DNA of 64,000 nucleotides, from contig JAJDBP010000007.1 of the NCBI GenBank assembly GCA_029261295.1, positions 62,001 through 126,000 of the forward strand. Reading direction: 5' to 3'. Below are positions 1-7,642 of the stretch, piece by piece. The DNA is from Nitrospirales bacterium (lineage in GTDB: Bacteria > Nitrospirota > Nitrospiria > Nitrospirales > UBA8639). Within the stretch, counting starts at the first letter, position 1. Every line of letters starts with the position of its first letter. Both the position numbers and the translations under genes were made by a program. A model generated the notes under the pieces. The model worked only from the letters and a program-made list of their open reading frames with translations. It did not search any database and was not told the DNA's origin.

Positions 1-356
1 TCCTTCGATAGATTATGAGGGCTGTTGTCTTTATAAAATATATATTCGAATTCGCACAAACTTTTAATTGCAAATTGTGCGCCAACAATATAATTAAGAT
101 AAGTTATTGTTTTTGTTAAGTTTTTATTAGAGTTTGACTTTTGAAACAAAACACTATTGTAAAAAATTCCTACTGTCTTATTACGAAATCCAATATAAAA
201 AACAGCATAACTGATTGAAATATAAAAAATTTTATAGGAAAACGCAATAAGAACCTGCGTGTGTGTGTTTAAAAATGGTTTTTTGCCAATATTACCCTGT
301 GAATTCAATGTTTTCACGACCTATTCCCCACTCATTGACGGATTTTTTAACATGAC

Positions 357-401
357 AAAAAAAACCCCCTCCCGATTATTCATCGAGAGAGGGGCCTTTT
401 T
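357..401. terminator. Rho-independent terminator, probably bidirectional
   Basis: A stem made of CCCCTC (366-371) and GAGGGG (389-394) is flanked by an A-run on the left and a T-run (CCTTTTT) on the right. Read on the minus strand it ends in a run of T and sits just past the stop codon of the S8 protease at 439, so it most likely ends that transcript. The rest of 1-438 is very AT-rich and shows no gene. Confidence 0.75.
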
Positions 402-438
402 ATGCTTCTAAACCTATCTAATATCTAGATATATTAAC

Positions 439-2292
439 CTACTTATTTCGCCCCTTCCCTCCCTTTTTTCCTCCTCCACCGGAAGTAGAGCCCTTAGAGA
501 CTTGAATTTGGATTTCGGATGAATGATTCGCTCCATCCACAGCCACAGCTTTAATTGTATGTGTGCCACTGCTGACTTTCCGTGTATTCCATGAATAATC
601 CATGGGACTTACATTGGAGGAAGCTTTTAATGATCCATTAATATAGAGCTTCACCGATGCCAGACTCACGTCGTCTGAGGCATTCACTCGAATTTGAACT
701 GTGCGACTCACGCTACTTCCGTTTACGGGATTCGTAATGTCGACGGATGGTGGATTCTGGTCTGGAGTATCAGGAACATTGTCTACGATAACCGGGTGAG
801 CCCCTGAACTGCCTTCATTATTGGCTGCATCATACGCATAGGCGATGAGCGTGATCGGCCCATCCGATTCATTGGTGGAATCCCACGAGAATTGGTAAGG
901 CGCCACGGTATCTTCACCCACCTTGAGGCTGCCCGCATACAGCACCACCTTGGTCACTCCGACGTTATCACCGGCATTCACATCGACGGGGACCCAACCA
1001 TTCACTTCCGCATCCCGCGCGGGTGTATTAATGGTTACCGTCGGACTTTGCGTATCCCCACCACCCGAAGTATTCCCCGCCATGGCCACAGCCTGAGCGG
1101 CATTGACTCGTCCTTCGCCATAATACAAGCTATTCCCAATATTATCTGCTGAATCTTCTAACACCGCTTCTGCTTCCGCTGGCGAGAGCGACGGATTTTG
1201 AGACATAATTAAGGCTACGACCCCTGCGGCTACTGGTGTCGAAAAAGAGGTCCCATACCATTGGCCCGTTCCACCGCCATTATTTGTCGTCCACAGCCAA
1301 TTACCCGGCGCCGCCACATCAATGTAATCGCCATAATTCGACCAGGAGGGCCGCACATCATTATTGTCTGTCGCAGATACATAGATCATTGAAGGGTTAT
1401 CAGCTAACCCAGGGTTGGTTCCATCATTCCCCCCGGCAGTTAAGACCACCCCACCTTTACTACGAAAATAGTTAGCCGCTGTCGTGACGGTACTGCTGTT
1501 AATCGGACCATAACTGATATTGGCCACTCGGGCGCCTTGATCGGCTGCCCAATTCAACGCCTCAGCAATATCTGAATAGTACGCATATAAATTACTTTGT
1601 TCCGTTATGCGCATAGGCATAATTTTGGCTGCTCCGGCAATCCCTGCCACGGCGGTGGAATTATGCGTCATGGCCCCAATAATGCCTGCCACGGCGGTGC
1701 CATGCCCGTGGTGATCGGAAAGATTGGAATTATTAGAGACCACGTTCCACCCGGACACCAATTGCCCTTGAAAATCTTGATGATTGGCATCGATACCCGA
1801 ATCCAGGACGGCGACTGTTACGCCCTCACCTTGTGTGGTATCCCATGCCAAAGGAGCTTGAATGATGGGCAAATGCCATTGGCTCGGATACACCGGATCA
1901 TTGGGAATGAATTCACTGGGGGCAACCAGCCCATCGACTTCGGCAAACTTGATATGAGGATTACGGGACAACGCTCGTACCATCGCTTGTTCAGCCTGCG
2001 GTGGTACATCTACGACTCGGGTTTTGAGCTTGCCAATTTTCCTCTTCGCTTTGCCTTGGCCTTTCGACACTTTCGATAAAATTTTGGAAAATTCTTTATC
2101 GGTTAACCCGGCCCGTGGTTGGACTAAGATGCGCCCCTCTGCCCATTCCAATGGCGCCTGAGCAAAACCTAATGAAGGCAGTCCAACCATTACTGACAGA
2201 ACGGTCACTGCTAACGTACCCAAAAGGCTTCGTCGTGCAGGTTTTGGGATATTAAATGATTGGGATTCTTGATTTGTTGAAGGACGAACCAT
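439..2292 (-). CDS. Secreted subtilisin-like serine protease (peptidase family S8), riboswitch-controlled copy
   Basis: A 617-residue exported endopeptidase. A signal peptide covers roughly residues 20-45, ending near FAQA. A prodomain follows at about 50-120. The S8 catalytic triad is readable as Asp164 in AVLDSGID, His197 in HHGHGTAVAG and Ser349 in GTSFSTPVAAG, with the oxyanion Asn289 in TAGGND. The C-terminal part carries two bacterial Ig-like domains (about 415-600), and the protein ends in a Gly/Lys-rich basic tail. The start ATG has a good ribosome binding site (GGAGG, 7 nt spacing). It is a close paralog of the neighbouring protease at 2777-4879, with an almost identical catalytic domain but fewer Ig-like modules. 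Its leader contains a c-di-GMP-I riboswitch, so expression probably responds to that second messenger. The substrate is unknown; an extracellular or biofilm-matrix role is inference. Confidence 0.9.
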   Translation of the reverse strand: MVRPSTNQESQSFNIPKPARRSLLGTLAVTVLSVMVGLPSLGFAQAPLEWAEGRILVQPRAGLTDKEFSKILSKVSKGQGKAKRKIGKLKTRVVDVPPQAEQAMVRALSRNPHIKFAEVDGLVAPSEFIPNDPVYPSQWHLPIIQAPLAWDTTQGEGVTVAVLDSGIDANHQDFQGQLVSGWNVVSNNSNLSDHHGHGTAVAGIIGAMTHNSTAVAGIAGAAKIMPMRITEQSNLYAYYSDIAEALNWAADQGARVANISYGPINSSTVTTAANYFRSKGGVVLTAGGNDGTNPGLADNPSMIYVSATDNNDVRPSWSNYGDYIDVAAPGNWLWTTNNGGGTGQWYGTSFSTPVAAGVVALIMSQNPSLSPAEAEAVLEDSADNIGNSLYYGEGRVNAAQAVAMAGNTSGGGDTQSPTVTINTPARDAEVNGWVPVDVNAGDNVGVTKVVLYAGSLKVGEDTVAPYQFSWDSTNESDGPITLIAYAYDAANNEGSSGAHPVIVDNVPDTPDQNPPSVDITNPVNGSSVSRTVQIRVNASDDVSLASVKLYINGSLKASSNVSPMDYSWNTRKVSSGTHTIKAVAVDGANHSSEIQIQVSKGSTSGGGGKKGGKGRNK

Positions 2293-2396
2293 TTAGCAAC
2301 CTCCACTGGAATGTGTGTAATGTCTTAAAAATTCTAAGTTTTCTGACCTGGAAATGAGCAATCACTAAGCCAGTACAGGTGGGGGTAGCCTGGATT

Positions 2397-2481
2397 CCTG
2401 GCGGTCCCGCTATCCTAGGATGTTCTCCCGTAGACCGGTGACTTTGCGTCCCTCCCTTTCGGAAGGTTTGCCATTTTCAGG
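2397..2481 (-). promoter_or_regulatory. Cyclic-di-GMP-I (GEMM) riboswitch aptamer
   Basis: On the minus strand the conserved GEMM-I blocks appear in order. GGCAAACC (2472-2465) is followed by a GAAA tetraloop hairpin, then GGGACGCAAAG (2452-2442), CACCGG, and the second-arm block CCTAGGATAGCGGGACCGCC. A short closing helix pairs CCTG (2481-2478) with CAGG (2400-2397). This matches the known class I c-di-GMP aptamer in both sequence and spacing. It lies about 105 nt upstream of the protease ATG at 2292. No convincing terminator or SD-sequestering helix was identified in the 105 nt between, so whether c-di-GMP turns the gene on or off cannot be read here. Confidence 0.9.
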
Positions 2482-2776
2482 TTTGTTGTAAAAATTTGCG
2501 TTGTGGGTGTTTTCGGAAGGATCGTAAAAATACTAAATGAGGCATTCTTCGATATTCTTTTGACTCACATGCCGTTCTTACAACTGTCGGAAAAGAGGTT
2601 GGCGACCGCCTGTTAGGGAAATGAAAGGGGATAAAATATCCGCAAAAAATGCCAGACCCTTTCAAAATCTTAGAGAATAACTATCGTTTATCTATTTTTT
2701 TTCGAATCGCCTCACGGCTTGAAGCACTTCTTCTCACCTCGCCCCAAAGCAGAGACCTCGTGAGATCCCCTCCCCG

Positions 2777-4879
2777 TTATTTCCTGGCACGCGTTCGGAC
2801 TTCGCCTGACACCTCAATTTGGGTTTCTGCCACATTGCCGGCCGCATCCGTCGCTCTGGCTTTTATGGTATGTGGACCCTTTCCTGATTTATTGGCCCGC
2901 CAATTAAACGTTAAAGGGCTGCTGTCCGACGCAGCTTTGAACTGATCATCCACATACAGTTGAATCACGGAGAGTTGGTTCTCATCAGACGCAGACACAA
3001 CAATGGGAACGTGGCGAGAGCCCCTGATTGTATTCAATGGCTTTTCAATGTTCACAGTGGGTGCCGTGGTATCTTCTGCGACAAATGCGGTCAAACTACT
3101 CCCCTGTGTATTTTCTACCGTTATCATTCGTGGGGCTGAACTCCCTTTTAAAAATTCCGTATCGTAGGCATGTGCTATCAGCGTCGTGTTTCCATCGCCT
3201 ACCGTGGTGGAGTCCCAAGAAAATTGAAAAGGGGCTTCAATATCTTGAGCGAGTCTGGTGTTCCCCACATATAAGACCACTGCCAGTAAGGCCTTATTAC
3301 TGGAAGCCACCACATCGACAGTGACGATTCCATTGGCGTTGCTTCCTTCAGCGGGATTGATGATGGTGACCATTGGTTCGTCTCCCGTGGGCGTATCAGG
3401 CACATTGTCAACGGTAATGGGATGGGCACCTGAGCTCCCTTCATTGTTGGCCGCATCATAGGCATAGGCGCTTAGTGTGATCGGCCCATCACTGATCGTC
3501 GTGGAATCCCATGAAAATTGGTAGGGTGCCACGTTATCTTCGCCAACTTCCGTGCCCCCAGCCAATAAGATCACCTGCGAAACTTCCATGTTATCCGTGG
3601 CATCCACATCTACCGTCACCAAACCACTGACTGTCGCATGCCGCGCAGGTGTGTTAATGGTGACCGTCGGACGTTGCGTATCCCCGCCTCCCGATGTATT
3701 CCCCGCCAGTTGCACCGCCTGGGCGGCATTCACGCGGCCCTCCCCGTAGTACAGGCTATTGCCTATATTATCTGCTGAATCTTTTAAGACGACTTCCGCC
3801 TCCGTTGGAGAGAGGGACGGATTCTGTGACAGAATTAAGGCCACGACTCCTGCGGCGACCGGAGTCGAAAAGGAGGTACCGTACCATTGACCTGTTCCAC
3901 CACCCTTATTGGTCGTCCACAACCACTGACCTGGGGCCGCCACATCAATATAGTTCCCATAATTCGACCAGGAAGGCCGAACATCGTTGCTGTCGGTTGC
4001 CGAGACATAGATCATTGAAGAGTTCACTGATAAACCAGGGTCGGTGTTATCATTGCCTCCGGCGGCTAACACCACGCCGCCTTGGCTGCGAAAATAGTTG
4101 GCCGCTGCCGTGACCGTGCTACTATTGATCGGTCCATAACTGATATTAGCCACTCGGGCTCCATGATCAGCGGCCCAGTTCAAGGCCTCCGCTATGTCTG
4201 AAAAATACGCGAATAAATCACTTTGTTCCGTTATGCGCATAGGCATGATTTTGGCTGCCCCGGCAATACCCGCCACTGCGGTAGCGTTATTCGTGACGGC
4301 CCCAATGATTCCCGCCACAGCCGTGCCGTGTCCGTGGTGATCTGTTAAATTGGAATTATTCGAAACCACATTCCACCCAGCAACCAATTGCCCTTGAAAA
4401 TCAGAATGATTGGCATCGATACCCGAATCCAAAACAGCGACAGTGACATCGGCACCCTGTGTGGTATCCCATGCAGCGGGGGCTTGAATCGTTTGCAAAT
4501 GCCATTGGCTAGGGTACACCGGGTCGTTCGGAATGAATTCGCTCGGGGCAACAAGCGCATCCACTTCCGCAAATTTGACGTGAGGATTGCGCGATAAGGC
4601 TCGGGCCATGGCTTGTTCAGCTTGGGGTGCTACTTCAATAACGTGGACATTGAGTTTGCGAAGTTTCCTCTTCGAACGGCATTGGGATCGTTGCAGAATT
4701 TTCCCGAACTCCTCGTCTGATAACCCGGCCCGCGGTTGCACTAAGATCCGACCTTTCGCCCATTTTTCTTGGTTTTGTGCAGAGGCAATAGGTGGCAACG
4801 CCACCCAAAAAGTGAGTGGAATCAGCAGTAAAGACCAGAAAATATTTCTGCCTGATGAGTTAGGATATTGCAGTTTCAA
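2777..4879 (-). CDS. Secreted subtilisin-like serine protease (peptidase family S8) with extra Ig-like domains
   Basis: A 700-residue secreted S8 endopeptidase, paralogous to the 439-2292 gene. A signal peptide spans about 11-35 (ending ASA) and a prodomain about 40-108. The triad is Asp151 (AVLDSGID), His184 (HHGHGTAVAG) and Ser336 (GTSFSTPVAAG), with Asn276 as the oxyanion residue. Three Ig-like modules (about 405-690) follow, one more than in the sister protein. The predicted start is a TTG. An in-frame TAA lies four codons upstream, so the start must be at or after this TTG, yet no Shine-Dalgarno sequence is visible. The gene lies upstream of the riboswitch on the same strand, so it is not controlled by that aptamer unless through transcript processing. 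The duplication is evidently old, because the linker and Ig regions have diverged. Confidence 0.88.
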   Translation of the reverse strand: MKLQYPNSSGRNIFWSLLLIPLTFWVALPPIASAQNQEKWAKGRILVQPRAGLSDEEFGKILQRSQCRSKRKLRKLNVHVIEVAPQAEQAMARALSRNPHVKFAEVDALVAPSEFIPNDPVYPSQWHLQTIQAPAAWDTTQGADVTVAVLDSGIDANHSDFQGQLVAGWNVVSNNSNLTDHHGHGTAVAGIIGAVTNNATAVAGIAGAAKIMPMRITEQSDLFAYFSDIAEALNWAADHGARVANISYGPINSSTVTAAANYFRSQGGVVLAAGGNDNTDPGLSVNSSMIYVSATDSNDVRPSWSNYGNYIDVAAPGQWLWTTNKGGGTGQWYGTSFSTPVAAGVVALILSQNPSLSPTEAEVVLKDSADNIGNSLYYGEGRVNAAQAVQLAGNTSGGGDTQRPTVTINTPARHATVSGLVTVDVDATDNMEVSQVILLAGGTEVGEDNVAPYQFSWDSTTISDGPITLSAYAYDAANNEGSSGAHPITVDNVPDTPTGDEPMVTIINPAEGSNANGIVTVDVVASSNKALLAVVLYVGNTRLAQDIEAPFQFSWDSTTVGDGNTTLIAHAYDTEFLKGSSAPRMITVENTQGSSLTAFVAEDTTAPTVNIEKPLNTIRGSRHVPIVVSASDENQLSVIQLYVDDQFKAASDSSPLTFNWRANKSGKGPHTIKARATDAAGNVAETQIEVSGEVRTRARK

Positions 4880-5314
4880 AGGGAGGAGATCTTAAAAATT
4901 ACATTTATTTCAACGTGTAAAAAATACTTGGGCCGTAGTAGTTCCTAGCAGGATAGATACCGAAACTTAAAAATACTGACGATTTACTTGATTTTTTTGT
5001 CATTCTTTTAACTTGTTGTTCTGTAAGTGATTTTTGTGGTCAAGGTTGTTTGCGTTTTAGTCATTCTTCCCAATTTTTTTAAAACATTTCTCTTGTCTGT
5101 CTTCTCTTCCCTTCAACCAGTATTTTTCTGCAGGGCTACCCCTACATCAATGAAAAGTGGAATTTGCCCAAGTTATAGGCATACCAACAGAATTTCTCTT
5201 TGATGGAATGGGGATGGAGGATTAAAGACTTACGAAGTTTTGCCGAAAATAATAAGAAGAGCAAAAAAAAGAAGAGACTCCTTACAATCTCCCCAAAAAC
5301 CTTAGAGGTGTTTT
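4880..5314. other. AT-rich intergenic region
   Basis: This stretch lies between the divergent protease and small-ORF genes. It contains long A/T runs and presumably promoters for both sides. I saw no second GEMM aptamer here, no convincing protein and no clear terminator. Confidence 0.5.
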
Positions 5315-5515
5315 ATGGAGATCAATCACCTTCCACCCCCTTCAGCAATCGCCCCCCTACGAGCGCCTTCAGCGGTTGGTGATGGTGATGCTGGCCCAAA
5401 TAGTCCGTATTATCGACAACGGAAAAAAAAACAGAAGCCTTCCCAAAATGATTCGGAAACAAACCAGGCTCCCCGCATAGAAGGGTCGACCACTCATATC
5501 GATATTCGTGTGTAG
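5315..5515 (+). CDS. Small hypothetical protein, proline- and lysine-rich
   Basis: A 66-residue ORF with an ATG preceded by GAGG at 6 nt spacing. The protein begins MEINHLPPPSAIAPL, carries a basic stretch (RQRKKKQKP) in the middle and ends THIDIRV. No signal peptide, transmembrane helix or known domain is apparent. Its composition and termini look protein-like rather than random, but coding status rests only on the start site and the length. It stands alone between the proteases and the glycoside hydrolase. Function unknown. Confidence 0.45.
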   Translation: MEINHLPPPSAIAPLRAPSAVGDGDAGPNSPYYRQRKKKQKPSQNDSETNQAPRIEGSTTHIDIRV

Positions 5516-5791
5516 CCTCCCCTCTGAATTGTTGGATTCGTTTGTCTTCTCTTCCAGTCAAAAACTTTCAATACAGCCGTTGATTGTTCTATCCGATAAA
5601 AGGAGTACGGCGTATACGTATGGGCCACATACTTCCAAAAAATCCCTACCTTATGATGGAAGGTTAAGGTCTGCCACCAATATCTTGATGTAGATGGATA
5701 ATTTTATCACCACATATAGTATTTTCCACGTATTTTGGGTATATTGGCGCCTTGCCTTTTTCGATCAATTCCTTATTTCAAAAGGAGTCTA

Positions 5792-7642
5792 ATGAGTTAC
5801 ACCAATATTGGTGATTACGGAATAATTGGAGATTTGCATACCGTAGCTCTTGTCAGTATTGACGGGTCTATCGACTGGTGCTGCCTCCCTCGGTTTGATT
5901 CCCCCAGTATTTTCGGTTCCATCCTCGATGACAAAATTGGCGGGCATTTTAAAATTGCGCCCGTACAAAAAGGCAATACCCGGCAAATGTATCTGCCGGA
6001 AACCAACATTCTTCTCACTCGCTTTCTCCAACATGATGGTGTCGGTGAACTCACCGATTTTATGCCGGTGGAATCGGATGAAGCCGGGTACCGTCCTCGC
6101 CGCCATCAAATTATCCGCATGTTGTCAGTTGTCCGTGGCACCGTGACCTTTCGCTTGGAATGTTCCCCCGGGTTTAACTTTGGACGGGATGCCCATGATA
6201 TTGAAAGTCACCCGAAAGGCATCATTTTCCAATCTGGCGATCAATCGATTGGATTAGTGAGTCCTATTCCTCTGAAAACACACGAAGGCGTCGCCTTTCA
6301 AGAATTTACTCTGCAACAAGGCGAAAGCCTGACCTTCTTTTTAGAGTACCTAGAAACCAAAAATGGCACTCCTCTTTTATCGACCCCAGAATCTGGTGAA
6401 GAAGCATTTCGCAATACCTCGGCTTTCTGGCAACGCTGGCTCTCGCAATGTCAGTATGACGGACGCTGGCGAGAAGTCGTTCACCGTTCAGCGCTCACAC
6501 TCAAGCTCCTGACCTACGCACCCACGGGGGCTATTGTCGCTGCACCCACAACCAGTTTACCTGAACATATCGGAGGACCTCGCAATTGGGATTATCGCTA
6601 TACCTGGATTCGCGATTCTGCGTTTGCCCTCTATGGATTATTACGTTTGGGATTTACTGTCGAGGCTGGCCGATTCATGGAATGGATTAATGCTCGCTGC
6701 CATGAATTGAATCCTGATGGATCAATTCAACTCATGTATGGCATTGATGGCCGTCGCAATCTAGAGGAGCATGAACTCCCCCATCTTGATGGGCACCGTA
6801 GCTCTCGCCCTGTTCGAATTGGCAATGGTGCGGCGTCACAATTACAAATGGATATGTATGGTGCGTTAATGGACGCAGTCTATCTCTACAACAAACATGG
6901 CGCCTCGATTTCGTACGACTTGTGGGTCAACCTGTGTCGCCTATTAGATTTTGTGTGCGAAAATTGGGAACAACCGGACGAAGGCATTTGGGAGGTTCGC
7001 GGTGGGCGAAAACATTTTGTCTATTCCAAAGTCATGTGTTGGGTGGCCTTAGACCGAGGGATTCGATTAGCGGACAAACGTGGATTTCCTGGTAATCGTG
7101 CTCGATGGATGACCGAACGCGACCGGATTTACCGAGAAATCATGGATCGAGGATGGAATCCGAAAATTGGTGCGTTTGTACAATCCTACGATAGTGAAGC
7201 TCTCGATGCCGCGAACTTAATTATGCCCTTGGTCTTCTTCGTCTCTCCAACTGATCCTCGCATGCTTTCGACTCTCGACCGAACCTTGGAGCAATTAGCG
7301 TTGGGGAGCTTGGTCTATCGGTACGATACCAACACCGCCGCTTCTGATGGCATAGAAGGAGAGGAAGGCACCTTCAGTATGTGTACCTTTTGGTTAGTCG
7401 AGGCGTTAACCAAAGCCGGGCGCTTAACGGAAGCGCGACTGATCTTTGAAAAGATGTTAAGCTATGCCAATCATCTTCGTTTATATGCTGAGGAGGTCTC
7501 ACATTCTGGCGAGCAACTGGGGAATTTCCCCCAAGCCTTTACACATTTTGGGCTCATTACCGCGGCTTGTAATTTAGATGTCGCATTGAATACCAAACGA
7601 GCCGCCCATACCGTCGCCCGCCGAAACCGACCCTCTACCTAA
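5792..7642 (+). CDS. Glycoside hydrolase family 15 (glucoamylase/trehalase-like)
   Basis: A 616-residue protein of the bacterial GH15 type that starts with the typical MSYTNIGDYGIIGDL N-terminus. The ATG at 5792 follows AAGGAGTCTA; the reading frame continues upstream, but without a comparable ribosome binding site. An N-terminal beta-sandwich (about 1-230) precedes an alpha/alpha barrel. The barrel has WDYRYTWIRDSAF, the acid-catalyst region DEGIWEVRGG (about 395-400) and the base region AEEVSHSGEQLGNFPQAFTH (about 565-585). There is no signal peptide, so it should be cytoplasmic. Family members release glucose from alpha-glucans or hydrolyse trehalose. The genes immediately downstream, gnd and zwf, would take glucose 6-phosphate into the oxidative pentose phosphate pathway. 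Exact substrate not determinable from sequence. Confidence 0.9.
   Translation: MSYTNIGDYGIIGDLHTVALVSIDGSIDWCCLPRFDSPSIFGSILDDKIGGHFKIAPVQKGNTRQMYLPETNILLTRFLQHDGVGELTDFMPVESDEAGYRPRRHQIIRMLSVVRGTVTFRLECSPGFNFGRDAHDIESHPKGIIFQSGDQSIGLVSPIPLKTHEGVAFQEFTLQQGESLTFFLEYLETKNGTPLLSTPESGEEAFRNTSAFWQRWLSQCQYDGRWREVVHRSALTLKLLTYAPTGAIVAAPTTSLPEHIGGPRNWDYRYTWIRDSAFALYGLLRLGFTVEAGRFMEWINARCHELNPDGSIQLMYGIDGRRNLEEHELPHLDGHRSSRPVRIGNGAASQLQMDMYGALMDAVYLYNKHGASISYDLWVNLCRLLDFVCENWEQPDEGIWEVRGGRKHFVYSKVMCWVALDRGIRLADKRGFPGNRARWMTERDRIYREIMDRGWNPKIGAFVQSYDSEALDAANLIMPLVFFVSPTDPRMLSTLDRTLEQLALGSLVYRYDTNTAASDGIEGEEGTFSMCTFWLVEALTKAGRLTEARLIFEKMLSYANHLRLYAEEVSHSGEQLGNFPQAFTHFGLITAACNLDVALNTKRAAHTVARRNRPST

Follow-up and report, generated by a model that had tools for sequence, protein, structure and literature searches.

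A c-di-GMP-I riboswitch probably acquired together with a secreted S8 protease in a Nitrospirales genome, and its recurrent PEP-CTERM neighbour

Introduction

The locus studied here raises the question of how a c-di-GMP riboswitch came to stand before one of two tandem secreted proteases in a Nitrospirales bacterium, and what a protease under such control would act on. The window (the whole stretch of DNA analysed, 64 kb) contained this locus at its left end (Table 1). We consider it likely that the c-di-GMP-I riboswitch entered the genome on an insertion that also brought its target protease, that control is probably translational, and that the likeliest role is the adjustment of PEP-CTERM surface proteins.

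Table 1. Features of the protease locus and of two related loci (L040 and L157, own coordinates)
Feature	Position	Strand	Remarks
Window part of ~8.3-kb insertion	1..5220		C35 ~58.9-67.2 kb; remainder left of window
Intrinsic terminator after protease A	365..393	-	12-bp stem, then T run
Protease A, secreted S8 subtilase, aptamer-controlled (predicted)	439..2292	-	Fervidolysin-type prodomain, two Big_7 repeats; PF00082 5e-47, PF17957
Post-aptamer leader, candidate expression platform acting on translation	2293..2396	-	104 nt; no intrinsic terminator
Shine-Dalgarno GGAGG before ATG 2292	2300..2304	-	Identified from sequence
GGCUACCCCCAC	2379..2390	-	Pairs 10/12 with Shine-Dalgarno region in minimum-energy fold; shuffled leaders give as much
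c-di-GMP-I aptamer	2397..2481	-	Complete; P1 CCUG 2481-2478 / CAGG 2400-2397, P2 with GAAA tetraloop, P3
Pocket base equivalent to Vc2 C92, here C	2401	-	Alignment of 116 aptamers
Pocket base equivalent to Vc2 A47, here A	2445	-	Alignment; RF03167 consensus is G
Pocket base equivalent to Vc2 G20, here G	2472	-	Alignment of 116 aptamers; G in c-di-GMP type, A in cGAMP type
Protease B, tandem paralogue without aptamer	2777..4879	-	Homology to A from codon ~49 to ~510 only
Protease B leader	4880..5314	-	AT-rich (35% GC), no aptamer
L040 VPxP-CTERM gene with own aptamer	Aptamer 5582-5664, ORF 5464-4829	-	Beside protease
L157 VPxP-CTERM gene with own aptamer	Aptamer 791-883, ORF 736-146	-	Beside protease

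Identity of the aptamer and its predicted ligand

A cmscan search of the whole window against Rfam identified a sole riboswitch at 2396-2481 on the minus strand, and it was reported as RF03167 (c-di-GMP-I-GGC; 68.0 bits against a threshold of 59 bits, E 6e-14), while the canonical c-di-GMP-I model RF01051 gave 74.9 bits at the same place against a threshold of 35; no other RNA family scored above threshold within 1-6000. The sequence-only reading had placed a GEMM-I aptamer at 2397-2481 and had proposed a covariance search as its check: the score lay well above threshold, and the coordinates proved correct within one base. The window aptamer shared with the RF01051 class its P1/P2/P3 fold, the GAAA tetraloop in P2, and the pocket G20/A47/C92, and it occupied a leader position conserved among the homologous loci. 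Nothing essential set it apart from this class, and only the class of its target gene was new within the searchable literature; the riboswitch as such is ordinary and its class well known, but its setting is unusual.

Pocket positions are given in Vc2 numbering, for which we take 47 and 92, together with the mapping of the pocket onto the window aptamer, to be the correct equivalents. The specificity positions and the stacking base have been described in the crystal-structure literature, and G20 is replaced by A in cGAMP aptamers (PMC6274999, PMC9262584). This cGAMP (GEMM-Ib) marker was absent from the window aptamer, which had G at 2472. Since all the pocket bases were canonical, plain c-di-GMP is the predicted ligand.

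The paralogous proteases and the insertion

The two neighbouring genes had been read from the sequence as paralogous subtilisin-like proteases, and both were indeed S8 subtilases with Big_7 (Ig) repeats and with intact D/H/S and oxyanion-Asn motifs; their fold family was taken from Pfam, and protease A was assigned to Peptidase S8 by its family score together with its catalytic triad. Proteases A and B matched in 79% of bases from about codon 49 to codon 510, while their leaders and signal peptides were unrelated. The second copy was also correctly described as free of the element: the leader of protease B contained none, and no weak c-di-GMP-I element was detected there at E up to 5. After the duplication, aptamer control was either kept by one copy or lost by one copy, and protease B, with its different leader and signal peptide, would lie outside the control of the aptamer.

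The insertion carried the two protease genes with the aptamer between them and, left of the window, genes for a PEP-CTERM protein and for a DCC1-like-domain protein (PF04134). The corresponding empty site was recognized in two relatives (G011 and G020), in which the flanking genes were ~190-230 bp apart versus ~8.3 kb here, and no protease homologue was found at E <= 1e-30 in 59 relatives from the genus, family, and order. The nearest kin of the protease were proteobacterial, and the named homologues came from Methylomicrobium, Methylotuvimicrobium, Methylomonas, Seongchinamella, Roseateles, and others. The protease was present in 22 of 201 genomes from the order of Methylotuvimicrobium, 13 of 300 from that of Roseateles, and 3 of 295 from that of Seongchinamella (orders which we take to be Methylococcales, Burkholderiales, and Pseudomonadales, respectively), and in 4 of 296 genomes from the window's own phylum, the window genome included. 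In a tree of 52 catalytic cores, A and B were sisters placed among Methylococcales sequences, with weak support for the forks around the pair. Judged from these sequence comparisons, the protease is probably foreign to the lineage and was acquired horizontally on the insertion.

Recurrence and common movement of aptamer and protease

The comparison was extended to 50 homologous protease loci, mostly proteobacterial, and 26 of them had a c-di-GMP-I aptamer in the leader, in the orientation of the gene. This recurrence strongly supports the earlier claim that a c-di-GMP-I element controls a secreted protease. The aptamer-bearing homologues came from Methylococcales, Pseudomonadales, and Burkholderiales and, within the phylum of the window, from two further families, and they were spread across the protease tree; in the 24 loci with a start assigned by script, the aptamer lay 43-153 nt upstream of it. 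Aptamer presence on this tree required eight changes versus 17.5 in shuffles, and the simplest reading is an early aptamer-protease association with repeated loss (in the Methylomonas clade and in one Burkholderiales clade). No aptamer was detected in just under half of the homologues, the large Methylomonas clade among them, and the protease can therefore run without it. In the searchable literature on c-di-GMP riboswitches with subtilisin, extracellular protease, or PEP-CTERM, the pairing was not described.

The aptamers themselves were also compared. The 15 nearest of 115 aptamers to that of the window were all protease-leader aptamers (69-80% identical), and the closest one (80%) belonged to the locus L146, whose protease, with B set aside, was likewise the nearest; the 89 aptamers of the window's own genus reached 68% at best and 54% on average. 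An 85-nt aptamer carries little phylogenetic signal, and this nearest-neighbour comparison is thus strong rather than final. Because the window aptamer was nearer to protease-leader aptamers than to those of its own genus, aptamer and protease probably moved together, and the sensor would have arrived with its protease on foreign DNA. A riboswitch and its target gene thus apparently move together between distant bacteria and are kept.

Two other readings of the aptamer bear on this origin and on the predicted ligand. The genus is rich in c-di-GMP-I aptamers (90 in the 21 genomes searched, one to nine each), and a resident one might have been recruited before the protease after its insertion; this was rejected as very improbable, since the window aptamer was closest to protease-leader aptamers of other bacteria rather than to native ones, and homologous proteases had an aptamer at the same position. 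An equally slim chance is left to the element being a true c-di-GMP-I-GGC variant with a ligand other than c-di-GMP, a reading that draws on the lowest Rfam E-value having gone to RF03167. By our own reading of the consensus, the "GGC" in that name denotes G at model position 37 (Vc2 A47), and the window aptamer, despite its score above the RF03167 threshold, had A there, as did all 26 protease aptamers and 88 of the 89 other genus aptamers (the remaining one had C); G was absent from this position throughout the 90 genus aptamers and the 26 protease aptamers. With RF01051 outscoring RF03167 and all three pocket bases canonical, the variant was rejected as well: the window aptamer was similar to RF03167 in overall score but without G at the A47 equivalent, and its "GGC" label reflects overall similarity.

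RF03167 was the best match by E-value not only at window 2396-2481 but also for most of the genus aptamers, though their marker base was the canonical A; annotation pipelines may thus wrongly name canonical aptamers as the GGC variant.

Leader structure and mode of control

No terminator was found between the aptamer and the start of protease A, and transcription attenuation was rejected for the window leader for this reason; across the data set, terminators were found in 2 of 26 protease leaders versus 29 of 84 other genus leaders. The absence of a terminator, together with the pairing of GGCUACCCCCAC with the Shine-Dalgarno region, favours translational control, and we infer that protease A is probably controlled at translation. 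In the proposed mechanism, c-di-GMP would bind the junction, the bound junction would stabilise P1, and stabilised P1 would change the leader fold around the Shine-Dalgarno sequence, so that control would most likely act at translation initiation. When P1 was forced in folding, the Shine-Dalgarno sequence became only slightly more accessible (0.15 to 0.26), and the low accessibility in this leader was no lower than in shuffled leaders. The direction of the switch received no clear answer from folding of the full leader, with the core forced, with P1 forced, or of the post-aptamer RNA alone with shuffled controls. The region just upstream showed no sigma-70-like promoter, and transcript read-through from gene B is possible. 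Of the seven GGDEF domains encoded in the genome, five had the exact GG[DE]EF motif.

The PEP-CTERM neighbour

The next gene 3' of protease A, also on the minus strand and starting at window -8, encoded a PEP-CTERM signal protein (PF07589, 26.8 bits). A gene with a PEP-CTERM or VPxP-type C-terminus was found in the flanks of 26 of the 50 homologous loci (162 kb in total), with strict VPEP in 22; these loci were not independent, several being close Methylomonas relatives, and the neighbours still fell into several sequence groups. In control DNA (800 kb, taken from 20 of these genomes) there were no strict and three relaxed matches, and the enrichment of such neighbours, as estimated from motif counts, was ~40-fold over background. 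Aptamer and PEP-CTERM neighbour were both present in 12 loci, among them those of Seongchinamella sediminis (L046) and Roseateles violae (L044), and in L040 and L157 the neighbour gene had a c-di-GMP-I aptamer of its own (48.1 and 35.9 bits, respectively). Methylotuvimicrobium buryatense 5G (L039) had the aptamer with its protease, and no PEP-CTERM gene was seen within 3 kb of that locus.

Two minor features of the neighbours were observed. A single close family was rejected for them, since blastp yielded several groups, and about ten shared, as judged by eye rather than by a homology test, a short S-H/N-hydrophobic-S/A motif near the C-terminus. The neighbour aptamers of L040 and L157 had canonical pocket bases, while the pair adjoining the pocket was, by eye, C-G and not G-C.

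Likely role and comparison with Zmp1

To our knowledge, no enzyme is known to take PEP-CTERM proteins off the cell surface. As PEP-CTERM (exosortase-type) surface proteins were frequent companions of the protease, its likeliest role is to adjust them: the protease would trim or release such proteins according to the c-di-GMP level, on the switch between attached and free life. Matrix or surface turnover had been suggested from the sequence as the role of the protease, and it gains support from the recurrent neighbour; c-di-GMP-dependent trimming or release of surface proteins is the most plausible role that we infer.

Two systems are relevant to this role. In strain GP59, c-di-GMP riboswitches precede PEP-CTERM genes (PMC12530212); control of PEP-CTERM proteins by such riboswitches is common to that strain and the loci described here, while the term "protease" is absent from that paper. 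In Clostridioides difficile, the secreted protease Zmp1/PPEP-1, turned down by a class I riboswitch, releases surface proteins that are turned up by class II riboswitches (PMC6366702). The window locus and the Zmp1 system, with its substrates, the sortase-anchored adhesins CD2831 and CD3246, shared a c-di-GMP-I riboswitch on a secreted protease and a nearby gene for a surface-anchored protein (with its own aptamer in two genomes here), but they displayed three differences: (i) Zmp1 is a zinc protease, while the protease here is a serine S8 protease; (ii) the substrates of Zmp1 are of the LPXTG/sortase type, while sorting here is of the PEP-CTERM type; and (iii) the hosts here are Gram-negative-type, unlike C. 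difficile. As far as gene arrangement goes, the locus has the form of a Zmp1-type module, i.e., a riboswitch-controlled secreted protease adjoining a gene for an anchored surface protein. By this analogy, the locus may be a mobile cross-phylum counterpart of Zmp1, in which the riboswitch would set the level of the S8 protease and the protease would release the neighbouring PEP-CTERM protein, a reading offered tentatively and held clearly below an even chance. If true, it would amount to c-di-GMP-controlled shedding of exosortase-sorted proteins, leading to floc or biofilm dispersal; floc formation in some activated-sludge bacteria is reported to need PEP-CTERM proteins (PMC9850573, PMC9012009).

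The protease might instead have a general nutritional or self-processing function that is unrelated to its neighbour, and this explanation keeps a sizeable, if minority, share of the probability: half of the loci had no such neighbour within the flanks read, and the neighbours that were found belong to several families, against which stand the ~40-fold excess of such neighbours relative to random DNA of 20 of these genomes and the neighbour's own aptamer in L040 and L157. Much less weight is given to the possibility that the intact aptamer is a relic that no longer controls the gene, or that the two protease genes are expressed constitutively from a single transcript. The lack of a clear expression platform in folding, the lack of a consensus promoter, and the loss of the aptamer in related clades would all agree with it, but the aptamer core was undamaged and scored as high as those of the homologues, and the protease gene and its terminator were intact, which makes this an unlikely account. 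The preferred reading, a riboswitch-controlled protease that adjusts PEP-CTERM proteins, concerns a cassette that occurs in distant bacteria, appears to have been moved horizontally, and has a recurrent PEP-CTERM neighbour; it puts names to an enzyme and a signal and proposes a substrate, each of which can be tested.

Other aptamers of the genome and genus

The window genome harboured six further aptamers, one of which (L054, 559-640, plus strand; G000:C2:467858) preceded the gene P0001 (734-3517, plus strand) for a secreted M11-type zinc metalloprotease with the motif HELGHNIGWHH; P0001 would be a second riboswitch-controlled protease of the genome, beside the S8 protease. Homologues of P0001 in two relatives (G017 and G024; 75-77%) had no aptamer in view; the sequence of one locus (L141) begins at the gene, with the leader outside it. 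Two aptamers 1.2 kb apart were also found in a Tad/Flp pilus locus of this genome (L051, 4931-5008 and 6182-6262; G000:C35:39930 and 41181), one before a Flp pilin gene and the other before a TadE/G-like gene.

The change of G20 to A is known from cGAMP-sensing aptamers, and A at the G20 equivalent was seen in 10 of 89 genus aptamers (e.g., L053, 4486-4577; G000:C29:59885) as well as in the protease aptamer of L145; on these bases, a mixed-ligand regulon within one genome is possible. The genes downstream of the genus aptamers encoded (i) a sigma-70-family factor (regions 2, 3, and 4) in 20 loci, (ii) Flp pilin in 13 loci (TadE/G-like in the window genome), (iii) response regulators in seven loci, and (iv) secreted FN3, InlB-B, or FG-GAP proteins. 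The aptamer before the sigma-70-family factor recurred in 20 of the 21 genomes (e.g., L055, 4502-4592, minus strand) and was directly followed by a clear terminator in the leaders read, which suggests c-di-GMP control of a sigma regulon in the genus.
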